In this document: one piece after another, positions 4,605-18,068 of the stretch
Numbering within the stretch: the stretch's first letter is position 1
Layout of the letters: every line of letters begins with the position of its first letter
Source of the DNA: Nocardia sp. alder85J
Lineage (GTDB): Bacteria > Actinomycetota > Actinomycetes > Mycobacteriales > Mycobacteriaceae
Reading direction: 5' to 3'
Assembly: GCF_020176955.2 (NCBI RefSeq)
Contig: NZ_JAIUCZ020000004.1
Coordinates: 1-64,000, forward strand
DNA: 64,000 nt
Translations under genes and position numbers: made by a program
The notes under the pieces: model-generated
What the model was told of the DNA's origin: nothing
The model's database searches: none
What the model saw: only the letters and a program-made list of their open reading frames with translations

Positions 4605-5443
4605 GAGTGGTGACCTTCCTCGAATATCTGGTCGTGCTGGTTACCGGCGTCGGCGATCTCGAGCAGCCAGCGGGCGCGCGCGACGATCGCGGCGTCGACG
4701 AACTGCCCGTCGCGGTCGACGAAGGCGGCCCCGGACTCCGCGAGCCCCTCGATCAGCTCACGGGCCCAGGACGTTTCGGCCGGGTCCGGCGCGCACACCT
4801 CGTGCACGACCGGGATCTGCGCGGGGTGGATGACCGACCGGCCGAAGAATCCGGCGGCCCGCCCCGCCGCCGTGCTGCCGCGCAGGCCGTCCAGATCCCG
4901 CACCGCGGTCCACACGCTCTGCACCGGGCTGGGCAGCCCGGCCGCGCGCGCGGCGACCACGATCCGCGATCGCGGCCAGCTCAGCGCCTCGCCGCCGGCC
5001 ACTCGCAGATCGGCGGCCAGATCGGCCTCACCGAGCGAGATGCCGGCGACCAGCGGATGCGCGGTCGCCAGCGCGAGCGCGTGCTCGACGCCGAGCGCCG
5101 ATTCGAGCACCGGGTAGACCGGCACGCCCAGCGTGTCGGCCACCCGGCGCAGCTCGCCGGGGTCCTCGCATTTGGGGACCCGGACCCCGGCGAGCGCTCC
5201 GGGGGCAGCGGCGAGCGCGCGCAGATCCGCCGCGCCCGCCGCACTGTCCGGAGCGTTCATCCGCACGTACGCGGCGGGCCCGGCGGCCAGCGCCGTCAGC
5301 ACGTTGCGCCGCGCGAGGTCCTTGTCCGCCGCCGCCACCGCGTCCTCGAGATCGAGGATCACCGCGTCGGCGGGCCCGGCGAGGGCCTTGCCGATGCGGT
5401 CCGCCCGGTCGCCGGGGACGTAGAGCCAGCTGCGCGGGGTCAC
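4601..5443 (-). CDS. HpcH/HpaI (CitE-like) acyl-CoA lyase
   Basis: The 280-residue protein resembles the CitE beta subunit and the malyl-CoA or citramalyl-CoA lyases, which split CoA thioesters of hydroxy acids in a metal-dependent retro-Claisen reaction. Seen are RSWLYVPGDR at residues 3-12, DAVILDLEDAV near residue 27 with the metal-binding acidic residues, VRVPKCEDP and SLGEADLAADL. The start is a GTG at 5443 that overlaps the CoA-transferase stop by 4 bp; it follows the family's usual N-terminus. No CitD or CitF partner is present, which favours a stand-alone lyase over citrate lyase. Confidence 0.87.
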   Translation of the reverse strand: MTPRSWLYVPGDRADRIGKALAGPADAVILDLEDAVAAADKDLARRNVLTALAAGPAAYVRMNAPDSAAGAADLRALAAAPGALAGVRVPKCEDPGELRRVADTLGVPVYPVLESALGVEHALALATAHPLVAGISLGEADLAADLRVAGGEALSWPRSRIVVAARAAGLPSPVQSVWTAVRDLDGLRGSTAAGRAAGFFGRSVIHPAQIPVVHEVCAPDPAETSWARELIEGLAESGAAFVDRDGQFVDAAIVARARWLLEIADAGNQHDQIFEEGHHS

Positions 5444-6627
5444 TTGACGACGCCCTTGTCCCGCAGCCGGGCCAGTTCCGCCGCGTCCACGCCGTAGCGG
5501 CCGAGGATCTCGGCGGTGTCCGCGCTCAGCGGGGCGCCGGCCGAGGTGATCGCGCCCGGCGTCTCGGACAGCCGGAACAGCACGTTCTGCATCTTGACCG
5601 GGCCCAGCTCGGCGTCCTCGACGGTCGCGATGGTGCCCAGCGCCGCGTACTGCGGGTCGGCCAGCACGTCGGCCGCGTTGTAGATCGGCGCGACGGCGGC
5701 CTGGGCCTCCTCGAAGGCCCGGACCACCTCGTCGCGGTCCCGCGCGGCGATCCAGGAGCCGACGGCCGTGTCGAGTTCGTCGGCGTGCTCGGCCCGTTGC
5801 GCGCCGGTGGCGAACCACGGTTCGTCGATGTACTCCGGGCGGCCGACCAGGCGCATCACCCGTTCCGCGATGGACTGCGCGCTGGTGGAGATGGCGACCC
5901 AGCTGTCGTCGCGGGTGCGGTAGGTGTTGCGCGGGGCGTTGTTGGTGGACCGGTTGCCGGTGCGCGGTTGCAGCTGCCCGAGCTGGTCGTAGGCGATGAT
6001 CTGCGGGCCGAGCAGGGTCAGGATCGGCTCGATGATCGCCAGGTCGACCACCTGGCCGTGGCCGGTCTGTTCCCGGGCGCGCAGGGCCGTCATCACCGCG
6101 AAAGCGGTGGTCAGCGCGGCGATTCCGTCGGCGAGGCCGAACGGCGGCAGCATCGGCGGGCCGTCCGGGTCGCCGGTGATGGCGGCGAAACCGCTCATCG
6201 CCTCGGCGAGGGTGCCGAAGCCGGGGCGCTTGGCGTACGGGCCGATCTGGCCGAATCCGGTGACGCGGGTGAGCACCAGGCCGGGGTTGATCTCCCGTAA
6301 CCGCTCGTAGCCCAGGCCCCAGCGCTCCAGCGTGCCGGGCCGGAAGTTCTCGATCACCACGTCGGCGTCGGCGACCAGCTTGCGGAAGATCTCCTGGCCT
6401 TCCGGCGAGCCGAGGTAGAGGGTGATGGCTTTCTTGTTGCGGCCCAGCATCTTCCACCACAGACCGACGCCGTCGCGCTGGGCGCCGTGGCTGCGGACCG
6501 GATCGCCGTCGGGGTGTTCGATCTTGATCACCTCGGCGCCGTAATCGCCGAGCATCGTCGCCGCCAGCGGACCCGCGAACAGGGTGGCCGTGTCCAGCAC
6601 CCGGATTCCGGACAATGCGCCCGCCAT
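5440..6627 (-). CDS. CaiB/BaiF family (class III) CoA-transferase
   Basis: The 395-residue protein is a class III CoA-transferase, moving CoA between carboxylates. It begins MAGALSGIRVLDTATLFAGP and shows GADVIKIEHPDGDPVR-like and NFRPGTLERWGLGY segments typical of the family; the conserved aspartate region is near residue 165. The ATG at 6627 is preceded by GGAGGAGA. It is the first gene of the leftward operon and diverges from the Liv-type transporter operon across 228 bp. With the CitE-like lyase it forms an activate-then-cleave pair for a dicarboxylic acid, as in itaconate or related C5 acid breakdown. The acid itself is not identified. Confidence 0.88.
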   Translation of the reverse strand: MAGALSGIRVLDTATLFAGPLAATMLGDYGAEVIKIEHPDGDPVRSHGAQRDGVGLWWKMLGRNKKAITLYLGSPEGQEIFRKLVADADVVIENFRPGTLERWGLGYERLREINPGLVLTRVTGFGQIGPYAKRPGFGTLAEAMSGFAAITGDPDGPPMLPPFGLADGIAALTTAFAVMTALRAREQTGHGQVVDLAIIEPILTLLGPQIIAYDQLGQLQPRTGNRSTNNAPRNTYRTRDDSWVAISTSAQSIAERVMRLVGRPEYIDEPWFATGAQRAEHADELDTAVGSWIAARDRDEVVRAFEEAQAAVAPIYNAADVLADPQYAALGTIATVEDAELGPVKMQNVLFRLSETPGAITSAGAPLSADTAEILGRYGVDAAELARLRDKGVVK

Positions 6628-6782
6628 GGGAGTACCTGCCTTTCTCCTCCTGGCGCTCCTCCAGCAATTTCCGCCGTTCCGCCAAGAGGAACGATTGTGA
6701 ACTTCAGGTTTCGGGGCGGCGGTCCCCGGCTGGTCACCAAGTTCGCACTGATTGAGGGGGTACGTCAAGTTACGAGGAGATA

Positions 6783-6811
6783 TTGACCTGAGCCGTGGCG
6801 GGTGTCACGAT
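6783..6811 (+). promoter_or_regulatory. Candidate promoter of the Liv-type transporter operon
   Basis: TTGACC at 6783-6788 is followed by a 17-base spacer and CACGAT at 6806-6811, a good actinobacterial -35/-10 pair. It lies 44 bases before the ATG at 6856, in the divergent region between the two catabolic operons. A regulator site was not resolved here. Confidence 0.5.
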
Positions 6812-6855
6812 AGCCCGGATCAGGCAGAACGTTTCTCTAATCGGAACGAGGTGAC

Positions 6856-8106
6856 ATGTCCGCGCGAAAGCTCGTCGTCGCGCTCGGTGCGTGCGCAGTG
6901 CTCGCGGTCGTGGCCGGATGCGGAGGTTCGGCCCCGATGGGGGCCGCCGGCGCGGCCGGTCAACGCGACCAGGGCCCGGTCAAGATCGGAGCGTTGCATC
7001 CGGTCAGCGGTTCCAATGCGGTGGACGGCCTCCAGATGCGCCGTGGCGCGCAGCTGGCGGTCGACGCGATCAACGCGGCCGGGGGGATCAAATCCCTCGG
7101 CGGCCGCAAGGTCGAACTGGTCACCGGCGACACCCAGGGCAAGGCCGATATCGGGCAGAGCGAGGCGCAGCGGGTGATCTCGGCCGGCGTCGTCGGCCTG
7201 GTGGGCACCTATCAGAGCGCGGTGAGCACGAACGTCTCCGTGGTCGCCGAGCGCAACCGGGTGCCGTTCGTGATGGACGTGACCGCGAGCGACACCATCT
7301 TCGCCCACGGCTATCGGTACGTGTTCCGCGTGCAGCCGGGCAGCAAGGTGATCGCCACCGCCGCCGCGCAGTACCTGAAGCAGGTGTCCGAGCAGAGCGG
7401 CAAGCCGGTGCACAAGGTCGCCTTCCTGCACGAGCAGAGCGATTTCGGCAGCGGCGCGGCCGACGCCTTCGACGCCGCCGCGCGGCAACTCGGCATCGCG
7501 CTGGGCCCGAACATCAGCTACGACGCGGCCAGCGTCAGCGACCTCACCGCGCAGATCACGCAGGTCAAGGCGTCCGGGGCGGATGTGCTCGCGATCGCCG
7601 GGTACTACCGCGACAGCCTGCTGGCGGCCAAGGCGATCGCCTCGGTGAAGCCGGACCTCGCCGCGGTGTGGGGCGTCTCCAACGGCGCCTACGACCAGCC
7701 CAAGTTCGTCTCCGACGCCGGACAGCTCGGCGAGCTGTATTTCAACACGAATTACCATTACGACGCGACCAACCCGGCGACCACCGCCCTGCGCGAGCAG
7801 TACCAGCGCAGCTTCGGCGATCCGATGCGGACCGGCGCGGTGCTCGCCTACGACGCGGTCCAGGTGATCGCGCAGGCGGTCGAGCAGGCCGGCAGCACCG
7901 ATCCGGAGCAGGTGCGCGACGCGATCGCCGCCGCCCACGTCGCACCGCTGACGGTGGGCAAGGGCCCGATCGAATTCGCCGGCAACGGCGACAACAGCAA
8001 CGCCGCACCGGTCCTGATGCAGGTTCAGGCCGGGCAGGTGAAGCAGGTGTATCCCCCCGAGAAGGCCGAATCCCGGCCCGAATACCAGGTGACATGGCGG
8101 CCATGA
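6856..8106 (+). CDS. Liv-type ABC transporter substrate-binding lipoprotein
   Basis: The 416-residue protein is a periplasmic-binding type I protein of the branched-chain amino acid (Liv) class. It has a lipoprotein signal peptide ending in the lipobox VVAGC near residue 22, then IGALHPVSGSNAVDG and GAQLAVDAINAAGG, the usual opening of LivK-like proteins. The start follows GAGGTG. Its stop overlaps the next permease gene. The ligand is unknown; such transporters also carry urea, amides and aromatic acids, and the context of hydrolases favours a nitrogenous or carboxylate ligand. Confidence 0.9.
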   Translation: MSARKLVVALGACAVLAVVAGCGGSAPMGAAGAAGQRDQGPVKIGALHPVSGSNAVDGLQMRRGAQLAVDAINAAGGIKSLGGRKVELVTGDTQGKADIGQSEAQRVISAGVVGLVGTYQSAVSTNVSVVAERNRVPFVMDVTASDTIFAHGYRYVFRVQPGSKVIATAAAQYLKQVSEQSGKPVHKVAFLHEQSDFGSGAADAFDAAARQLGIALGPNISYDAASVSDLTAQITQVKASGADVLAIAGYYRDSLLAAKAIASVKPDLAAVWGVSNGAYDQPKFVSDAGQLGELYFNTNYHYDATNPATTALREQYQRSFGDPMRTGAVLAYDAVQVIAQAVEQAGSTDPEQVRDAIAAAHVAPLTVGKGPIEFAGNGDNSNAAPVLMQVQAGQVKQVYPPEKAESRPEYQVTWRP

Positions 8107-9122
8107 GCAATCTCGACACAGCACAGGCGGTGCTCGATCCCGACACCGCACCCCCGGCCCGCCGCTTCCCGGTGGACCGTTCCTTCCTCGGCCGCGCCGG
8201 CGTGGTCGGCGTCGTCCTCGTGGTCGCCATCGTGGTGGCGCTGCTGCGCTCGGGCAGCGGGCTGGTGGTCTGGCAGTCGGTGGTCACCGGCATCCTGACC
8301 GGCGGTCTGTACGGGCTGATCGCGATGGGCCTCACACTGATCTTCGGTGTGCTCGACATCGTGAACTTCGCGCACGGCGCGCTGCTGGCCGTCGCCATGT
8401 TCATCTCGTTCGGCATGGTGGATGCCACCGGCATGCACCCGTATCTCACGCTGCTGATCGCCACCCCCGCGTTGTTTCTGATCGGCGCGATCGTCTATCG
8501 TGGCCTGCTGTCCGGTAGCGGAGCCCGCTCTCTGGAGAATCAGCTGCTGATCACGCTCGGTCTGTCGCTGTTGCTGGAGAACGGTTTGCTGATGTTCTTC
8601 GGCGCCGAGCCCAAGAGCATCAAGTTGCCCGGCGAGTTCCAGTTCTCGCTGTTCGGCGCGGTCGTCGCGGGTTCGCGGTTGTACGCCTTCCTCGGTGCGA
8701 TCGCACTCGGCGGGGTGCTGTTCTGGCTGCTGCGCAAGACCCGGCTGGGCACCGCGATCCGCGCGGTCGCCGCGAACGGCACGGGTGCGCAGTTGGTGGG
8801 CATCAACGTCCGCCGCATCCACATGGTGACCTTCGCGATCGGCACCGCCTGTGCCGGCGCCGCGGCGGCCCTGGCGGGGCCGCTGGTGACGGTGTCGCCC
8901 ACCCTCGGCGAGCAGTTCAACATCACCGCGTTCGTGGTGGTGGTGCTCGGCGGGATGGGCAACGTGGTCGGCGCGCTCATCGGTGGTCTGCTGATCGGCC
9001 TGGTCGAGCAGCTCACCACCATCTACCTCGGTGGCCAGAGCTCGCTGCTGGGTGTGTTCGTGGTGTTCGTGCTGGTGCTCTTCCTCCGCCCGCAGGGACT
9101 GTTCGGAAGGAAGGCGGCATGA
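8103..9122 (+). CDS. Liv-type ABC transporter permease (LivH-like)
   Basis: This 339-residue membrane protein has about eight hydrophobic helices and the LivH signature around GGLYGLIAMGLTLIFGVLDI and NFAHGALLAVAMF. It forms the channel with the next gene. The ATG at 8103 overlaps the preceding stop (ATGA); an in-frame ATG at 8094 is an alternative. The roughly 50-residue N-terminal tail before the first helix is a little long for the family. Confidence 0.9.
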   Translation: MSNLDTAQAVLDPDTAPPARRFPVDRSFLGRAGVVGVVLVVAIVVALLRSGSGLVVWQSVVTGILTGGLYGLIAMGLTLIFGVLDIVNFAHGALLAVAMFISFGMVDATGMHPYLTLLIATPALFLIGAIVYRGLLSGSGARSLENQLLITLGLSLLLENGLLMFFGAEPKSIKLPGEFQFSLFGAVVAGSRLYAFLGAIALGGVLFWLLRKTRLGTAIRAVAANGTGAQLVGINVRRIHMVTFAIGTACAGAAAALAGPLVTVSPTLGEQFNITAFVVVVLGGMGNVVGALIGGLLIGLVEQLTTIYLGGQSSLLGVFVVFVLVLFLRPQGLFGRKAA

Positions 9123-10168
9123 ACTCGAGCGCCATCACCATCGCCGGTCCGGCGGGCGCGTCGACCAAGGCGCCGCCGCTGCGGCCCGCGAACCGGCAGT
9201 TCGCGATCCTCGCCGTGCTGGTGCTGCTCGCCATTCCGCTGCCGGCGATCCTGCCCTCGGCGCAGGGCGCGGTCGCGGTGCGGATCCTGATCTTCGCGCT
9301 GATGGCCGTGGGCTGGAACATCATGAGCGGCTTCGGCGGCATGTTCAGCTTCGGGCACGCGGCCTACTTCGGGGTCGGCGCGTACACCAGCGCGTATCTA
9401 CTGGTGAAGCACGACGTCTCGCCGTGGCTCGGGATGCTGGCGGGCATGGTCGTGGCCGCCGCGGTGGCGGTGATCATCGGCTACTTCTCCTTCCGCTACA
9501 AGTTGCAGGGCGCGTACTTCGCGCTGGCCACCTTCGCCTTCGCCGAGATGTTGCGGCTGATCGTGACCAGCAGCACATTCGCCAACAAGTCGGTCGGCTT
9601 CAGCGTGCCGCTGATCCAGGGCTCCTCGCTGTGGAAACTCCAGTTCCCCGCCGATTCGCGCGCCTACTTCTGGGTCGCGCTGGTGCTGGCCGGGGCCGCG
9701 GTCGCGATCAGCATCGCCTTCCTGCACTCGCGGGCCGGCCGCTACGTCACCGCGATCCGCGACGACGAACTGGCCGCCGCCGCGCTGGGCACCCCGGTGA
9801 TGCGCTACAAGCTGATGACCGTGGCGCTGTCCGCCGCGATCACCGCGGTCGCGGGCGCTTTCTACACGCAGTACTACCTATTCGTGAACCCGGACCTCGG
9901 TTTCGGTTCGGCGGTCTCGATCCAGGCGATCGTGCCGGTGGTGATCGGCGGTATCGGCACCATCTGGGGTCCGATCGTCGGCGCGATCATCGTCGGCTCG
10001 CTGACCGATGTGACGGCCACGCTGCTGCGCACCCCACCGGATTTCCTGGACTTCCTGAAGGGCCGCAGCGGCCTGGACGTCGTGCTCTACGCGGTGCTGC
10101 TGATCCTCATCGTGCGGCTGTTGCCGAAGGGAATTGTCGGAACGATCGCGGCGAGGTGGCGGCGATGA
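9119..10168 (+). CDS. Liv-type ABC transporter permease (LivM-like)
   Basis: The 349-residue protein is the second permease subunit. It shows the LivM pattern GWNIMSGFGGMFSFGHAAYF followed by GVGAYTSAYL, and the cytoplasmic loop AIRDDELAAAALG that contacts the ATPases. It has around ten hydrophobic helices. The ATG overlaps the LivH-like stop by 4 bp and is preceded by GGAAGGAAGG, so the subunits are coupled. Confidence 0.9.
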   Translation: MNSSAITIAGPAGASTKAPPLRPANRQFAILAVLVLLAIPLPAILPSAQGAVAVRILIFALMAVGWNIMSGFGGMFSFGHAAYFGVGAYTSAYLLVKHDVSPWLGMLAGMVVAAAVAVIIGYFSFRYKLQGAYFALATFAFAEMLRLIVTSSTFANKSVGFSVPLIQGSSLWKLQFPADSRAYFWVALVLAGAAVAISIAFLHSRAGRYVTAIRDDELAAAALGTPVMRYKLMTVALSAAITAVAGAFYTQYYLFVNPDLGFGSAVSIQAIVPVVIGGIGTIWGPIVGAIIVGSLTDVTATLLRTPPDFLDFLKGRSGLDVVLYAVLLILIVRLLPKGIVGTIAARWRR

Positions 10169-10899
10169 GCATCGTGCAGGTCGACGGGGTCGGCAAGGCG
10201 TTCCGCGGGCTGCGGGCGCTGTCGGACGTGGACTTCCACGTCGACGAGGGCGAGATCCTGGGCATCATCGGCCCCAACGGCGCGGGCAAGACCACGCTGT
10301 TCAACGTGGTCGCCGGGGCGATCCGGCCCGACACCGGACAGGTGTCGTTCGCCGGACGCGACGTCACCGGCGCCCGGCCGGAGCAGATCGCGCGGGCCGG
10401 GATGGTCCGCACCTTCCAGCTGATGCGGCCGTTCGGCAGCATGACCGTGCTGGAGAACGTGAGCCTGGCCGCCCAGCACCACCGGCTCGGCGCCCGCGCG
10501 CTGCGCGAACACGCGCTGGACGTGGTGGACCGCGTCGGCCTGGGCCCGTGGGCCTACCGCCGGTCCACCGAACTGCCCACCGCCGGGCTCAAGCGTCTGG
10601 AACTGGCCCGCGCGCTGGCTTCCCGGCCCACGGTGCTGCTGCTGGACGAGGTGCTCGCGGGCCTGGTGCCCGCCGAGCGCGAACCGGTGCTCGACCTGCT
10701 CGCCTCGCTGCGCGAACAGGAGGGCGTGACGCTGCTGTTCATCGAGCACATCATGGCCGCGGTGATGCGGCTGGCCGATCGGGTGCTCGTGCTCGACCAG
10801 GGCCGGGTGCTCGCGGTCGGCTCGCCGGCGGAGGTCACCAGCGACCCCCGGGTCATCGACGCCTACCTCGGTGAGGAGCCGACCCATGCTGACGCTTGA
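10165..10899 (+). CDS. Liv-type ABC transporter ATP-binding protein (LivG-like)
   Basis: This 244-residue ATPase has Walker A GPNGAGKTT at residues 36-44 and Walker B VLLLDEVLAGL near residue 165. The signature loop reads LPTAGLKRLELARAL rather than LSGGQ, a change known in some LivG-like subunits of amide and aromatic acid transporters. It overlaps the upstream permease by 4 bp and the downstream ATPase by 14 bp. It pairs with the LivF-like subunit to power import. Confidence 0.9.
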   Translation: MSIVQVDGVGKAFRGLRALSDVDFHVDEGEILGIIGPNGAGKTTLFNVVAGAIRPDTGQVSFAGRDVTGARPEQIARAGMVRTFQLMRPFGSMTVLENVSLAAQHHRLGARALREHALDVVDRVGLGPWAYRRSTELPTAGLKRLELARALASRPTVLLLDEVLAGLVPAEREPVLDLLASLREQEGVTLLFIEHIMAAVMRLADRVLVLDQGRVLAVGSPAEVTSDPRVIDAYLGEEPTHADA

Positions 10900-11587
10900 G
10901 CGGATGTCCGCCGGCTACGGCCGGATGCAGATCCTGCACGAGATCGACCTGCGCGTCGGCGCGGGCGAGATCGTGGCCCTGGTCGGCGCGAACGGCGCCG
11001 GCAAGACCACCACGCTGCGCAGCATCTGCGGCCAGATCGCACCGCTGTCCGGCGCGATCACCTTCGACGGCACGCCGACCGCCGGCCTGCGCCCCGACCA
11101 GCTGGTCCGCGCCGGTCTGGTGCACGTGCCGGAGGACCGCGCGCTGTTCGGCACGCTCACCGTGGAGGAGAACCTGCGGATGGGCGCCTGGACCCGCACG
11201 GCCGAACAGGCCGAACGGTCGCTGGCCGAGGTGTACGCGCTGTTCGAGATCCTCGCCGAGCGCCGGACCACCGTCGCGGAGACCTTCTCCGGCGGCCAGC
11301 AGCAGATGCTCGCCATCGGCCGCGCGTTGATGGCCGGGCCGAAACTGCTGATGCTCGACGAACCGTCGACGGGCCTGTCGCCCAAGCTGACCTGGCTGAT
11401 GCTCGAGGCCGTCCGCCGCATCCGCGACACCGGGGTGTCGGTGCTGCTGGTCGAGCAGAACGCGAAACAGGCGCTGGCCATTGCCGACCGGGCCTATGTG
11501 CTGGAGAGCGGCTCGATCGTGTTGCAGGGCACCGGCGACGAACTGGCCGCCGACCCCCGGGTCAGGAAGGCGTACCTGGGCCTGTGA
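10886..11587 (+). CDS. Liv-type ABC transporter ATP-binding protein (LivF-like)
   Basis: The 233-residue ATPase starts MLTLERMSAGYGRMQILHEI, contains Walker A GANGAGKTTT, the LivF-typical VPEDRALFGTLTVEENL, a signature FSGGQQQML and Walker B LLMLDEPSTGL. The ATG at 10886 lies within the end of the LivG-like gene. The transporter set is therefore complete: binding protein, two permeases and two ATPases. Confidence 0.91.
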   Translation: MLTLERMSAGYGRMQILHEIDLRVGAGEIVALVGANGAGKTTTLRSICGQIAPLSGAITFDGTPTAGLRPDQLVRAGLVHVPEDRALFGTLTVEENLRMGAWTRTAEQAERSLAEVYALFEILAERRTTVAETFSGGQQQMLAIGRALMAGPKLLMLDEPSTGLSPKLTWLMLEAVRRIRDTGVSVLLVEQNAKQALAIADRAYVLESGSIVLQGTGDELAADPRVRKAYLGL

Positions 11588-11679
11588 ACTCCGAATCCGC
11601 GCGCGCTGCCCGGTGGGGCGGTGACGACGAATCCGCCGGTGCTGCTGATGACGAATCTTCGAGTGAGGCAGAGATATTC

Positions 11680-13113
11680 ATGGACGGTGCGCAGGTGTCG
11701 GAAGCTACCGGGGTCGCGACGTCACGGCCGGACGCCGGGGGCCGGGCCTCGGATCCGGGATCCGTGACGGCAGCGGCCACCGGTGTACTCGGGGCCTGGG
11801 TGTCCGGGCTGGATTTGGCCGCGGTGCCGGACGAGGTCGTCGAACGTCTGTCGCTGGTGCTGCTGGATGTGTTCGGCGTGACCGCCGTCGGTGCGTCGCT
11901 GCCGGACCACCGTGCGCTGCGGGAGGTCTGGCACGCACCGGCCGGGCCCGCGCCCCTGATCGGGGCCGGGCGGTCGGTGGCCACCGATGCGGCGGCCTGG
12001 CTCAACGGCATGGCGCTGGTTTCGCTGGAGCTGGACGAGGGGAACAAGTACGCCAAGGGACATCCTGCGGCGCACGGGTTTCCGGCCGTGCTGGCGCTGG
12101 CGGCCGAACTGGACAGCTCGGGGGCGGACACCGCGGCCGCGCTGCTCGCCGCCTACGAGGTGGCGACCCGGTTCGGGCGGGCCACCAGCGCACGGCCGGG
12201 TGTGCATCCGCACGGGAACTGGGGGGTCGCCGGGTCGGCGGCGGGATGCGCACGGCTGCTGGGACTTTCGGCCGAGGCCACGGCCGCGGCGATCGATGCC
12301 GGCGCGGGGATGGCGATCGCCGGGCACTTCGATTCGGCGACCGACGGCAACCCGGTGCGCAACGCGTGGATGGGCGCCTCGGCGATGTCCGGTCTGGCCG
12401 CCGCGCGGATGGCGGCGGCGGGGATGGCCCGCAACACCGGCACCGCCGCGTTGTCGCTGGGAACCCTGCTCGGACAGTTCGATCCGGCGGAGCTGACCGG
12501 CGAGCTGGGGGAGCGGTGGGACATCACGCGCGGCTATTTCAAGCGGCACGCGTCCTGCTCGTTCACCCATCCGGCCGCCGACGCCGTGCTGGAGCTGCGC
12601 GGTGAGCCCAGGTTCCGGGCCGAGGCCATCACCGAGATCCTGGTGGAGAGCCACGCGCTCGGTGCGGGCCTGACCGGCACCGAATGGTCGAACCGGTTGT
12701 CGGCGATGTTCTCCACCCCGTTCGTGGTCGCCACCGCCGCGCTGACCGGCACGGTCGGCCCGGACAGCGAGCTGGACGATCCCGCGGTGCGACAGCTGGC
12801 CCGGCGGGTCCGGCTGGTCGCCGCCGCCGACCTCACCGCCCGGTTGCCCGCCGAGCGGGCCGTGCGCGCCACCGTCCGGTTCGCCGACGGCGGCACGCTG
12901 GTGCGCGAGGTCCCGAATCCGGTCGGCGACGCCGACCATCACCCGCTGAGCGAGCAGGACGTGATCACGCTGCTGAAGGGCTGGCTGCCCACGCAGCCCG
13001 GCCTGGTGGACCGCGCGGTCGCACTGAGCCACGACCTGCCGGGTCGGCAACGCGTCGGCGACGCGCTGCGCGGCCTGGCCGGTTCGGATGAGGAAGAGAA
13101 GGAGCTGAACTGA
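11680..13113 (+). CDS. MmgE/PrpD family protein (second copy)
   Basis: This 477-residue MmgE/PrpD protein keeps the family features LLDVFGVTAVGA, ALVSLELDEGNKYAKGHPAA, GNWGVAGSAAG and YFKRHASCSFTHPAADA, the last a Cys-containing active-site segment comparable to that in the first copy. The frame is open back to a GTG at 11584 that overlaps the LivF-like stop, but that stretch is acidic, uses rare codons such as ATA and has lower third-position GC. I therefore prefer the ATG at 11680 behind GAGG. It sits between the transporter and the racemase, which ties it to the imported compound. Confidence 0.85.
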   Translation: MDGAQVSEATGVATSRPDAGGRASDPGSVTAAATGVLGAWVSGLDLAAVPDEVVERLSLVLLDVFGVTAVGASLPDHRALREVWHAPAGPAPLIGAGRSVATDAAAWLNGMALVSLELDEGNKYAKGHPAAHGFPAVLALAAELDSSGADTAAALLAAYEVATRFGRATSARPGVHPHGNWGVAGSAAGCARLLGLSAEATAAAIDAGAGMAIAGHFDSATDGNPVRNAWMGASAMSGLAAARMAAAGMARNTGTAALSLGTLLGQFDPAELTGELGERWDITRGYFKRHASCSFTHPAADAVLELRGEPRFRAEAITEILVESHALGAGLTGTEWSNRLSAMFSTPFVVATAALTGTVGPDSELDDPAVRQLARRVRLVAAADLTARLPAERAVRATVRFADGGTLVREVPNPVGDADHHPLSEQDVITLLKGWLPTQPGLVDRAVALSHDLPGRQRVGDALRGLAGSDEEEKELN

Positions 13114-13745
13114 TGCGTGCCTTCGCGGTGACGCCCATCCATCTGCCGCCCGAGGAGATCCGGCGGCGGCAGGACCGCTACGACCGGCTCGCGCCGCCGG
13201 GCCTGCGGATCGAACTCCGCGACGTCGGCGCCGCCGCGCCGACGTCGCTGGACACGGGCGACGCCGTGCGGGCTTCCGAGCGCGAGGTCGCAGCCGTCCT
13301 GGCCACCGCCGGAACGGATTTCGACCTCGCTTTCCCGGATTGCGTGCTGGACCCGGCGGTCCCCGACACCGTCTCCGAGACCGCCCTGCCCGTGCACGGC
13401 CTGCTCAAACTGTCGGCAACACATCTGGCGGGCAAGGGAATCCGCTTCGGCGCGGTGGTCCGCAACGAGGCCATCGCCGCCGAATTCGACCAGCGCATCG
13501 CCGATTACGGCCTGGGCGCCCACTACGCCGGCAGTCGCGTGCTGGACCTCCCGTTCAGCGCGATCGCCGACACCGAGGTCTGGAACAAGGCACTCGGTGC
13601 AGCGGTCCGCGATCTGGCCGAGCAGGGCGCCACCGCCGTCATCAACGGCTGCTCCGCCGTCGACGTCGAACCCGCCGACCTACCCGCCCGCATCGTCGAC
13701 CCGACCGAGCTGGCGCTGCGCGTGCTGGCCGTCGAGGAGGCGTGA
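13113..13745 (+). CDS. Asp/Glu/hydantoin racemase family protein
   Basis: The 210-residue protein belongs to the Asp/Glu racemase superfamily, which includes hydantoin racemase, allantoin racemase and maleate isomerase. The two expected cysteines are present: FPDCVLDP near residue 72 and INGCSAVDV near residue 174, the catalytic acid/base pair of the family. Its ATG overlaps the PrpD-like stop by one base and follows AAGGAG. Next to a hydantoinase gene, hydantoin-type racemisation is the natural guess, but a maleate-type isomerase is equally compatible. Confidence 0.82.
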   Translation: MRAFAVTPIHLPPEEIRRRQDRYDRLAPPGLRIELRDVGAAAPTSLDTGDAVRASEREVAAVLATAGTDFDLAFPDCVLDPAVPDTVSETALPVHGLLKLSATHLAGKGIRFGAVVRNEAIAAEFDQRIADYGLGAHYAGSRVLDLPFSAIADTEVWNKALGAAVRDLAEQGATAVINGCSAVDVEPADLPARIVDPTELALRVLAVEEA

Positions 13746-13785
13746 TGCGCCGGATGTCGCTGTCCCACAAGACGGGTGCGGCCCG

Positions 13786-15150
13786 ATGAGCGACGGACCC
13801 GATCTGATCGTCGCGGGCGCCGGTGGCGGCCTGGCCGGTGCGTTGCGGGCCGCCGAGCTGGGGCTGAGCGTGCTGGTGGTGGAGGCCAGCGAGCATTTCC
13901 GGCGCGGCAACAACACCTCCATGTCGACCGCGATGTTCCCCGGTGCGGGGTCGCGGTGGCAGCGGGAGGCGGGGATCGAGGATTCCCCGGAGACCTTCGT
14001 CGCCGACATCATGGCCAAGACCGAGGGGCAGGCCGAGGCGCGGCTGTCCCGGACGCTGGCCGGGGTGAGCGCGGAACTCGTGGAATGGCTGCACGATTCG
14101 GTCGGCCTGCCGCTGTCGCTGGTCACCGACTTCAACTATCCGGGGCACGCGGTGCCGCGCTGCCATTCGATCGAGGGGCGGCACGGGTCCGGGGTCATCG
14201 ACCACCTGGCCCGCCGGGTCGCCGAGCACGAGAACATCGAGATGCTCGTTCCCGCGAAGCTGGTCGACGTGCTCACCGAGGCCGACGGGGTGCGCGCAGC
14301 GGTGATCCGGTATCCCGACGGCGTGGAGGAAGAGATCCCCACTCGCGCGATCCTGTTGGCCACCAACGGTTTCGGCGCCGATCGCGATCTGGTGCAACGG
14401 TATCTGCCGGAGATCGCGGACGCGCTCTACCAGGGCAGTGACCAGTCGCTCGGCGACGCGCTGCGCATCGGTGAGAAGCTCGGCGCCGCAACGGGATTCC
14501 TGGACGCCTATCAGGGGCACGGCGCGGTCGCCGCGAATGCGGGCACCCTGCTCGGGTGGGCCACGATCATCCACGGCGCGGTCCTGGTCGACACCACCGG
14601 TCACCGCTTCGGCAACGAGACCCGCGGCTACTCCGAGTACGCCGCGGAACTGGCGGCCCGGCCCGGCGCGACCGGCTGGATCGTGTTCGACGAGACCGTC
14701 TTCGAGCAGTGCCAGGCGTTCCAGGACTTCCGGAACGTGGTGGCCTCCGGCGGTGTGGTGTGGGCCGGCGACGCGGCGGGCCTGGCGGCGGCGACCGGGT
14801 TGCCCGCCGACGCGCTGGTCGCGGAACTGGCTGCCGTGCAAGCGATCGCGCGTGGCGAACAGCCGGATCCGCACGGCCGCACCAACTGGGAGCGTCCGCT
14901 GTCCGGCCGCTGGGCCGCGGTGCGGGTGGTGCCCGCGCTGTTCCACACCCAGGGCGGACTGCTCGTGAACGAGCGGGCCGCCGTGGTCGACGCGCAGGAT
15001 CGGGCGATTCCCGGCCTGTATGCCGCGGGCGGCGCCGCGGCGAGCATCTCCGGTCACGGCGCCGCCGGATATTTGCCCGGTAACGGGCTCCTGCCCGCCT
15101 TCGGGCTGGCGTACCTGGCCGCGGGCGACGTTGCTCGCCGGGCGGCCTGA
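13786..15150 (+). CDS. FAD-dependent oxidoreductase of the fumarate reductase/ketosteroid dehydrogenase type
   Basis: The 454-residue flavoprotein begins with an ADP-binding fold, LIVAGAGGGLAGALRAAE, and has RGNNTSMSTAMFPGAG near residue 40 and AAGGAAASISGHGAAGYLPG near the C-terminus, which closes over FAD. This is the FAD_binding_2 family: succinate dehydrogenase/fumarate reductase flavoproteins, tricarballylate and ketosteroid dehydrogenases, which insert or reduce a C=C bond beside a carbonyl. A 14-codon frame (13745-13789) precedes it and overlaps its ATG, possibly for coupling. No iron-sulfur or membrane partner is encoded nearby. Confidence 0.83.
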   Translation: MSDGPDLIVAGAGGGLAGALRAAELGLSVLVVEASEHFRRGNNTSMSTAMFPGAGSRWQREAGIEDSPETFVADIMAKTEGQAEARLSRTLAGVSAELVEWLHDSVGLPLSLVTDFNYPGHAVPRCHSIEGRHGSGVIDHLARRVAEHENIEMLVPAKLVDVLTEADGVRAAVIRYPDGVEEEIPTRAILLATNGFGADRDLVQRYLPEIADALYQGSDQSLGDALRIGEKLGAATGFLDAYQGHGAVAANAGTLLGWATIIHGAVLVDTTGHRFGNETRGYSEYAAELAARPGATGWIVFDETVFEQCQAFQDFRNVVASGGVVWAGDAAGLAAATGLPADALVAELAAVQAIARGEQPDPHGRTNWERPLSGRWAAVRVVPALFHTQGGLLVNERAAVVDAQDRAIPGLYAAGGAAASISGHGAAGYLPGNGLLPAFGLAYLAAGDVARRAA

Positions 15151-15167
15151 ATTTCACGCGAAGGAAT

Positions 15168-16646
15168 ATGACTGACATGGCAACAACGGAACTGCTGATC
15201 AAAAATGTCCGGGTCGTGCGGCCCGAGGATCCCGACACCGCGCAGCCGGCGCTGCTCGACATCGCGGTGAACGACGGCAAGATCGTCCGGGTGGCGGCGG
15301 ACCTGCCCACCGACGACGCGGCCCGGGTGGTCGACGGCCGCGGCCTGCTGGCCTTCCCCGGCGTGGTGGACGCGCACCAGCACTGGGGCATCTAGAACGA
15401 ACTGGCCGAGGACACCCGCAGCGAGAGCCGGGCCAGCGCGCAGGGCGGCGTCACCACCTCGCTGACCTACATGCGCACCGGCCAGTACTACCTGAACAAG
15501 GGCGGTAGCTACCGGGACTTCTTCCCCGAGGTGCTGAGCCTGTCGCAGGGCAACGCCTACGTCGACTACGCCTTCCACCTGGCCCCGATGAGCGCGCAGC
15601 ACATCGAGGAGATCCCGTTCCTGGTCGAGGAATTCGGCGTCACCTCGTTCAAGATCTTCATGTTCTACGGCAGCCACGGCCTGCACGGCCGGTCGACCAG
15701 CCAGAGCGATTTCCTGATGATCCCGCCGGACGAGCGCTACGACATCGCGCACTTCGAATTCGTCATGCGCGGTGTGCAGAAGGCCCGCGAGATCCTCACC
15801 GAGTACGCGCCGCACATCTCGCTGTCGCTGCACTGCGAGACCGCCGAGATCATGACCGCCTACACCAAGCTGGTCGAGCAGGAGGGCACGCTCACCGGCC
15901 TGCGCGCCTACAGCGCCTCGCGCCCGCCGCATTCGGAGGGCCTGGCGGTCACCATCGCCTCGTATCTCGCGCACGAGACCCAGCTGCCGAACATCAACCT
16001 GCTGCACCTGTCGTCGGAGAAGGCGCTGTCGGCGGCGCTGACCATGAAGAACGCCTTCCCGCACATCGACTTCCGCCGCGAGGTGACCATCGGCCACCTG
16101 CTGGCCGACGTGGACACCGCCTCCGGCATCGGCGGCAAGGTGAACCCGCCGCTGCGCGAGCGCGAGGACGTCGAGGCGCTGTGGCGGCACATGCTGGCCG
16201 GCGATATCGACTGGGTGGTCAGCGACCACGCCTGCTGCCGCGACGAACTGAAGTTCGGCGCCGACCGCGGGGACGTGTTCCTCGCCAAGTCGGGTTTCGG
16301 CGGCGCGGAGTACCTGCTGCCGGGCTTGGTCGGTGAGGGGACCAAGCGCGGCCTGTCGTTGCAGCGCATCGCGCAGCTGCTGTCGTGGAACCCGGCCCGG
16401 CGCTACGGTCTGCCGACCAAGGGCACCATCGCCGAGGGCTACGACGCCGACATCGCCCTGGTGGACCCGAACGTGGAATGGACTGTGCGAGCGGCCGATT
16501 CGGAGTCGACCCAGGAGTACACCCCGTTCGAGGGCTTCGATATGACCGCCCGCGTCACCGACACCTTCGTCCGCGGCCACCAGGTGTTCACCGACGGCAA
16601 GGTGGTCGGCGACCCGATCGGCACGTTCCTGCGCCGCGGCCGCTGA
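15168..16646 (+). pseudogene. D-hydantoinase/dihydropyrimidinase-like amidohydrolase interrupted by an in-frame TAG
   Basis: Read through one TAG, this frame gives a full-length cyclic amidohydrolase of about 492 residues. The first 75 residues hold the metal motif DAHQHWG, and the next codon is TAG (15393-15395). The same frame then continues without further stops: SFKIFMFYG with the lysine that is carboxylated in this family, LSLHCETAE, LLHLSSEKA and WVVSDHACC with the catalytic aspartate. Relatives usually have a tyrosine where the TAG falls, so a single TAC/TAT-to-TAG change explains it. The longest downstream start (15471) would lack the HxH metal ligands. It may be a recent nonsense mutation, a sequencing error or readthrough. 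The ATG at 15177 is an alternative start. Confidence 0.85.
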
Positions 16647-16701
16647 TCGCGCCGCGCGCGGCGCCGCTCGGGCAGGCGGTGGCTCAGCCGGCCACCCGGC
16701 C

Positions 16702-17084
16702 GGTGGACGTGGAACTCGGCGAGATCATCGATGAACTCTACGAATTCATCGACCGCAACCGGCATGTCCTGAAACTGGTCGAGTGGTGTGCGGCCGAACT
16801 ACCCGAATTGGCGCGGATGTACTTCGTGCAACGGCGCCGGGCCATTGCTCGAGCATCTGTCCGAATTCTTGCAGGAGCGGATCCGGGCAGGCACGTTGCG
16901 GTCGGTTCCGGATGTACCGGCCGCAGCCAGATTCATCGTGGAGACCATCGCATGGTTCGCCATGCACCGGTACAGCGATCCCGATTCGATGATGCTCGAC
17001 GACGCGACCAGCCGCAGCACGGTCCGGCACCTGCTCATGGCCGCGTTCACGCCGTCCACCGGCCCTGTCGAACCGGGGACGTGA
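16702..17084 (+). pseudogene. Remnant of a TetR-family regulator (C-terminal half, frameshifted)
   Basis: One frame reads ELGEIIDELYEFIDRNRHVL then CAAELPELARMYFVQRR up to about 16837. The continuation GPLLEHLSEFLQERIRAG and PAAARFIVETIAWFAMHRY lies in another frame to the stop at 17082-17084. Together they resemble the ligand-binding half of a TetR regulator with one extra base near 16838-16845. No helix-turn-helix region exists upstream, where the hydantoinase ends at 16646. The fragment is therefore truncated and shifted. The 162 bases after it, up to the IclR stop, show no recognisable gene. Confidence 0.55.
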
Positions 17085-17246
17085 CGACCACGATCGAACT
17101 CGGTGACGCGGCCGCGCAGTCGCACCGTGCCCGGCCGCGCCTGGACAGTGGTGAGATCCGGACCGGCGCGATCCCGCGGTCGACGTCCGGTGCCGCATCG
17201 GCCGTGACGGCTTCGATCCGGTTGCGCCGGAACCGATTTCGCCGGA

Positions 17247-18068
17247 TCAGTCGCGGCCGGGCTGCGCGCGCAACCAGCTCCAGTTGGTCCGGATCTCCTC
17301 GGCGGCCGCGCGGATCAGCGCGCGGTAGTGGTCGATCGCCTCGGGGGTGAAACGGTACTGCGGCCCGCAGATGCTGATCGAGCCCTGCACCTCGCCGCCC
17401 GGCCCGAACAGCGGCGCCGCGACCGAGCCCGCACCGGCCTGGCGCTCACCGAGCGATACGGCCACCCCTTCGCGCACGGCGTCGGCCAGCGCGGCCCGCA
17501 GCCGGGTCTCGTCGGTGATCGTGTTGTCCGTCAACGAGTTCAGCGGCCGGTGCAGCAACGTCTCGCGCCGCTCCTCGGGCAGGAACGCCAGGATCACCTT
17601 GCCGGACGACCCCGCGTGCAGTGGGAACCGCCGCCCGAGCTCGACGGTCATCTTGATCTCGCGCGGGCTCTCGAACTGATCGAGGTAGACCCGCTCGTCA
17701 CCGACCAGCCCGGACAGGGTGGTGGTCTCGCCGGTCTCGTCGCGCAGCCGGCGCAGCACTGGCGTCGCCACCGTGCGCGCGTCGAATCGCCGCAGCGCAC
17801 TGGCCCCCAGCGCCGCCGCGGCCGTCCCCAGCCGATATCCCGACACCCCTTCGTCGGTGGCCAGCACATCGCGCGACACCAGCGATTGCAGGATCCGGTA
17901 CACCACCGCCTTCGACAGCCCCAGTTCCCGGCTGATCGCGCTCACCCCGAGGTAGCGGGGACCGCCGGTGAACAGCAGCAGCACGTCCGCGACCCGGGCC
18001 GCGGCCTCGGTTCCGGCGTTGTCTGCCGCCGGGGCGGGCCGGCGTCCGGCGGTACTCTTGATTGTCAC
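17247..18068 (-). CDS. IclR-family transcriptional regulator
   Basis: The 273-residue protein has an N-terminal winged helix (ARVADVLLLFTGG, then GLSKAVVYRILQSLVSRDVL near residues 50-70) and an IclR effector domain with LHAGSSGKVILAFLP and GAGSVAAPLFGPGGEV. The start is a GTG at 18068. It points back toward the catabolic operon that ends at 16646 and is the best local candidate to control it; IclR proteins often regulate the breakdown of small acids and ureides. A palindrome at 18091-18108 upstream of its start may be its own operator. Confidence 0.91.
   Translation of the reverse strand: MTIKSTAGRRPAPAADNAGTEAAARVADVLLLFTGGPRYLGVSAISRELGLSKAVVYRILQSLVSRDVLATDEGVSGYRLGTAAAALGASALRRFDARTVATPVLRRLRDETGETTTLSGLVGDERVYLDQFESPREIKMTVELGRRFPLHAGSSGKVILAFLPEERRETLLHRPLNSLTDNTITDETRLRAALADAVREGVAVSLGERQAGAGSVAAPLFGPGGEVQGSISICGPQYRFTPEAIDHYRALIRAAAEEIRTNWSWLRAQPGRD

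Follow-up and report, generated by a model that had tools for sequence, protein, structure and literature searches.

A single in-frame TAG in an amidohydrolase gene of Nocardia sp. alder85J, probably a recent nonsense mutation

In a stretch of 64,000 nucleotides from Nocardia sp. alder85J (contig NZ_JAIUCZ020000004.1, positions 1 to 64,000; here called the window) the gene of a hydantoinase/allantoinase-like amidohydrolase is interrupted by one TAG codon. This stop is probably a recent nonsense mutation of the ordinary kind, specific to the strain or species, in the only copy of the gene that was found. An earlier note on the same DNA had named mutation, sequencing error and readthrough as possible explanations. 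This list was right, and its members can now be ranked with mutation first, error second and readthrough as a distant third. The weights given to mutation and error are a matter of judgement and not of calculation.

The plus-strand frame from 15168 to 16646 comprises 492 codons, and its translation contains one internal stop, the TAG at 15393-15395; apart from this codon it is open as far as the TGA at 16644-16646. Thus, the description of an otherwise open frame split by a lone in-frame TAG is borne out, and a conserved frame of this length with a single stop is not a product of chance. The TAG lies shortly 3' of HQHW (local translation DAHQHWGI*NEL), just past the DAHQHWG motif as had been stated. 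However, the start claimed at ATG 15168 has to be revised. At this position the genomes G022 and G102 carry TCG and TTG, respectively, whereas the ATG at 15177 is common to all three genomes and is therefore probably the true start. The principal features of the gene are the following:

15177..16646, plus strand: interrupted gene of the hydantoinase/allantoinase-like amidohydrolase, with ATG 15177 as likely start and 15168 as a possible alternative
15375..15383, plus strand: presumed metal motif HxH, here HQH, directly ahead of the stop; in the alignment of the G022 relative with allantoinase 3e74 this place is matched by HTH of the latter
15393..15395, plus strand: in-frame TAG; tyrosine in 99 of 99 distinct relatives
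15471..16646, plus strand: frame of 391 residues that opens with ATG 15471, the first in-frame ATG past the stop, and lacks the HxH part

Relatives of the gene had been expected to carry tyrosine at the site of the stop, and this expectation was confirmed throughout. In a first alignment 112 of 114 loci covered the site. Tyrosine was encoded at 109 orthologous loci (102 TAC, 7 TAT), and of the remaining three, two are duplicates of the window and one is a paralog of 29% identity with proline. A larger set of 136 loci, consisting of the genus matches and 80 loci from named genomes, was reduced to 99 distinct gene sequences, all of which encode tyrosine (92 TAC, 7 TAT). The site aligns with a proline of allantoinase 3e74, four residues beyond the HxH motif; the tyrosine is therefore a trait of the subfamily and not a presumed metal ligand. 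The nearest relatives are those of G022 and G102 with 95-96% identity, followed by Amycolatopsis with up to 91%; identity drops to 70-79% for the remaining near-full-length copies from the genus.

A search of 150 genomes of the genus with the full-length G022 relative as query (E <= 1e-60) yielded 61 matches in 60 genomes. Only one of these, the copy of the window, contains an in-frame stop, which is missing from all 60 other matches. Besides the genome of the window, 58 genomes possess a near-full-length copy free of stops, and one of them (G024) carries in addition a partial copy at the end of a contig. The other 90 of the 150 genomes gave no match at 1e-60. The copy in G087 (L252:4285-4902; residues 5-208) stops short at about 210 residues, within a contig of 90 kb, and appears to represent a separate loss in the genus. 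With 90 genomes lacking a match and a short copy in G087, the gene is dispensable in the genus.

A backup copy elsewhere in the genome of the strain was considered and rejected. The other DNA matches to the gene in this genome are 29 to 99 bases long, and in a protein search of the own genome the best other sequence among the matches listed is 36% identical over part of the length.

Apart from the stop, the gene is well preserved, as the earlier note had held. The dN/dS values are 0.119 in comparison to G022 and 0.116 in comparison to G102, and at 160 invariant columns the stop is the sole departure in the copy of the window. Seven further replacements on its own branch are all located at variable columns and lead to residues also found in relatives. 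Beside the stop, the own branch counts seven replacements to 12 silent changes, and this 7:12 stands against 7:20 on the sister branches including their stem (Fisher p 0.52). If only the terminal sister branches are considered, the ratio is 7:12 against 2:15 (Fisher p 0.13), or 8:12 with the stop included (p 0.07). From this last contrast a slight relaxation of selection before or after the appearance of the stop is possible. Exchanges of C and G account for six of the eight changes listed for the own branch, and the C-to-G change of the stop thus belongs to a type that is common there. Altogether, these patterns suggest that the gene was under purifying selection until lately, and the remainder of it still looks selected. 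The change is hence young or an error, and the sequence evidence fits both alike.

A single inactivating change of this kind has a close counterpart in the pseudogenes of Salmonella. In the portion of the study by Kuo and Ochman (2010, PMC2916853) drawn on here, most pseudogenes are strain-specific; 346 of 378 carry a single inactivating mutation, which is a premature stop in 131 of the 346. The likeness to the cases in that portion extends to one inactivating premature stop in one genome with intact relatives, as well as to a divergence that is accelerated little or not at all. Judged by its sequence, the gene of the window fits this pattern of strain-specific pseudogenes with a single inactivating mutation. 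However, several Salmonella strains were compared in the part of the study used, and here one genome represents the species.

The second explanation, that the gene is intact in the strain and the TAG is a base-call or assembly error present in the assembly only, is unlikely but has several points in its favour. It would account for a single substitution in a gene that is otherwise free of defects and shows no clear relaxation of selection. However, a brand-new true mutation would leave an identical sequence, and the absence of decay therefore gives error no advantage over mutation. The TAG also creates the tetranucleotide CTAG, which is rare here, and the cause of this rarity, whatever it is, does not act on an error. 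CTAG is strongly avoided in the window: 5 occurrences were observed against 47.9 expected from dinucleotide shuffles, and the stop forms one of these five (15392-15395) as well as the only TCTAGA of the window, an XbaI site. A scarcity of CTAG was also seen in a 300-kb stretch of contig C39 (48 against 834 expected from base composition alone). More generally, many putative bacterial pseudogenes are assembly errors according to the sections of Cooley and Wright (PMC11017572) consulted, where near-identical genomes are reported to differ on average in 8.2% of the pseudogenes with internal stops.

Against an error stand the position of the gene and the quality of the surrounding assembly. The genome has a size of 9.74 Mb in 40 contigs, and the gene lies about 15 kb inside a contig of 843 kb, with no near-identical second copy to which it could have been mis-merged. 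An error of the indel type was rejected, as the alignment of the three genomes is free of gaps within the gene. Furthermore, the base rate of false stops was determined by comparison of one 300-kb stretch of contig C39 with G102. From 223 called genes of G102, 156 were comparable and 67 were dropped for low identity or coverage. Three genes were flagged with internal stops and two were split, one appearing in both lists, and in all four genes the stop or break is located in an over-long, apparently non-coding N-terminal extension. The reverse comparison, which tests G102, comprised 157 of 185 genes, with five flagged and four split; four of the five flagged genes were inspected and read as N-terminal over-extensions. 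There is thus no genuine internal stop in the 156 comparable genes of this one stretch. Over these 300 kb false stops are not a frequent fault of the assembly, although one base is not cleared thereby.

The third explanation assumes that UAG is decoded often enough to make the enzyme at a low or regulated level, and it has very little probability. In its favour the frame past the stop is conserved, and insertion of tyrosine at UAG would restore the residue of the family. In the part of the cited work that was used (PMC5289835), UAG is misread by Gln, Tyr and Lys tRNAs in yeast and by a Gln tRNA in E. coli, and readthrough follows the order UGA > UAG > UAA. A tyrosine or glutamine tRNA might perhaps read UAG in this strain, so that the stop would act as a dial and not as a kill switch, an idea to which hardly any credence is given. 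However, conservation past the stop is equally expected for a recent mutation. None of the 55 tRNA matches, all of them covered by ARAGORN, has a CUA anticodon, and the single tRNA-Tyr carries the anticodon GUA. The release factor RF1 is present (483.7 bits against a cut-off of 423.25), and the best match to PylS reaches 23.8 bits against a cut-off of 178.15. TAG is an everyday terminator in this genome, closing 33 of the 185 called genes within the 300 kb compared; in the window it closes 9 of 36. Moreover, none of the 99 distinct relatives has a stop at the site and none of the 60 other genus matches has one in frame, so there is no conserved recoding. On the strength of the tRNA, RF1 and PylS searches and of the use of TAG as terminator, reassignment of the code or suppression was rejected as a general explanation, and the stop gives no reason to suspect a change of the genetic code or recoding. 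The base that follows the UAG is an A. Traces of the enzyme could still arise by low natural readthrough.

The designation of the protein as a hydantoinase is valid at the level of the superfamily only. The piece past the stop scores 46.3 bits with Pfam Amidohydro_1 (cut-off 25; 49.8 bits for the G022 relative), and for the intact G022 relative an alignment with allantoinase 3e74 spans residues 8-488 (E 2.6e-42). The positions HxH, Lys, His, His and Asp, which we take to be those of the metal site, are present in this alignment, and the frame of the window has the same residues, distributed over both sides of the stop. In these positions and in the Amidohydro_1 score over the cut-off the protein resembles the amidohydrolases of the AllB/D-hydantoinase/dihydroorotase type (PDB 3e74, 8hfd, 1k1d). 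The piece past the stop, on which alone these models were scored, remains far under the NCBIfam cut-offs, with 185.7 bits against 357.85 for the AllB equivalog and 169.5 against 650 for ErtD. The flanking genes for a CaiB CoA-transferase, a flavoprotein and an IclR regulator are not known as members of the allantoin pathway.

For the nonsense mutation, the following course is proposed. A single C-to-G substitution would very recently have converted a tyrosine codon, invariant among the compared relatives, into TAG. Translation would halt after 72 or 75 residues, and the stub would end three codons past the HxH motif. Among the presumed metal ligands only the HxH pair would be translated, and most of the barrel would also be missing; an active enzyme is therefore not expected. 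A restart at ATG 15471 is possible in principle; no strong ribosome-binding site was recognised there by eye, and this route was set aside since its product of 391 residues would lack the HxH part. We infer the loss of the enzyme and of the pathway step, as well as the structure of the operon and the correctness of the base call. If the base call is right, the strain should lack the presumed ring-opening step in a catabolic operon that is open elsewhere, which calls for caution in metabolic reconstruction from the genome.

The gene is the last of a presumed operon composed of an ABC transporter, a PrpD-like protein, a racemase-like protein, a flavoprotein and the amidohydrolase. The neighbouring genes are:

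5440..6768, minus strand: class III (CaiB) CoA-transferase, conserved neighbour
6856..8106, plus strand: periplasmic-binding-protein-like substrate-binding protein of the ABC transporter
9119..10168, plus strand: ABC permease of the branched-chain-amino-acid/urea type
10871..11587, plus strand: LivF-like ABC transporter ATPase
11584..13113, plus strand: MmgE/PrpD family protein, open, with variable N-terminus
13113..13745, plus strand: Asp/Glu/hydantoin racemase family protein, open
13597..15150, plus strand: FAD_binding_2/flavocytochrome c-like protein, open; its gene precedes that of the amidohydrolase in the operon and probably has a more internal start
16700..17084, plus strand: TetR C-terminal-half-like remnant, apparently frameshifted, directly after the amidohydrolase gene; weak, below the Pfam cut-off
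17247..18068, minus strand: IclR family regulator, conserved neighbour

Because of the last position of the amidohydrolase gene in the presumed operon, no polar effect on the operon genes is expected. Production of the remaining proteins would continue, and the loss would be confined to the presumed ring-opening step. The comparison with G022 and G102 comprised nine genes, eight of which had been taken as open frames beforehand. For the genes other than that of the amidohydrolase, dN/dS ranges from 0.04 to 0.25, the alignments with G022 and G102 contain no stop and no Fisher test falls below 0.1; the range and the Fisher tests leave out the LivG frame 10134-10874, evidently a wrong frame with dN/dS >2. 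Decay of the whole operon was rejected on these values. Likewise, a disruption of the PrpD gene (82% identity, gaps) was rejected, as the difference is confined to the variable N-terminus.

From the families it may be guessed that the operon serves to take up a cyclic ureide or imide, to convert it and to open its ring. Literature searches gave no substrate for this operon with ABC transporter, CaiB CoA-transferase, flavoprotein, amidohydrolase and IclR regulator. The operon itself is of more interest than the stop. Among the 80 named loci, some of which are ended by contig ends, a relative of CaiB is found at 72, of IclR at 71, of the flavoprotein at 63, of PrpD at 33, of the racemase at 29 and of binding protein plus permease at 19. 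In DNA, the region 5440-18068 and its counterparts in G022 and G102 are about 87-91% identical. All the neighbours together occur at loci of Amycolatopsis, Actinomadura and Prauserella rather than at the Nocardia loci fetched, which suggests lateral transfer.

Downstream, the amidohydrolase gene is followed by the remnant and then by the IclR gene on the other strand. The gap between amidohydrolase and IclR genes (16650-17246) comprises about 600 bases in the window and contains the TetR-like remnant, whose match to TetR_C_7 has an E value of 0.0095, under the cut-off. For its second piece, none of the 149 other genus genomes contains a relative at 1e-6. In G022 (L116:868-2430) and at the matching place in G102, a gene for a pyridine-nucleotide-disulphide oxidoreductase is located between the amidohydrolase and IclR genes. 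None of the 80 named loci showed this gene at the threshold used. It is missing from the window at that place, and was either lost there or gained in G022 and G102.
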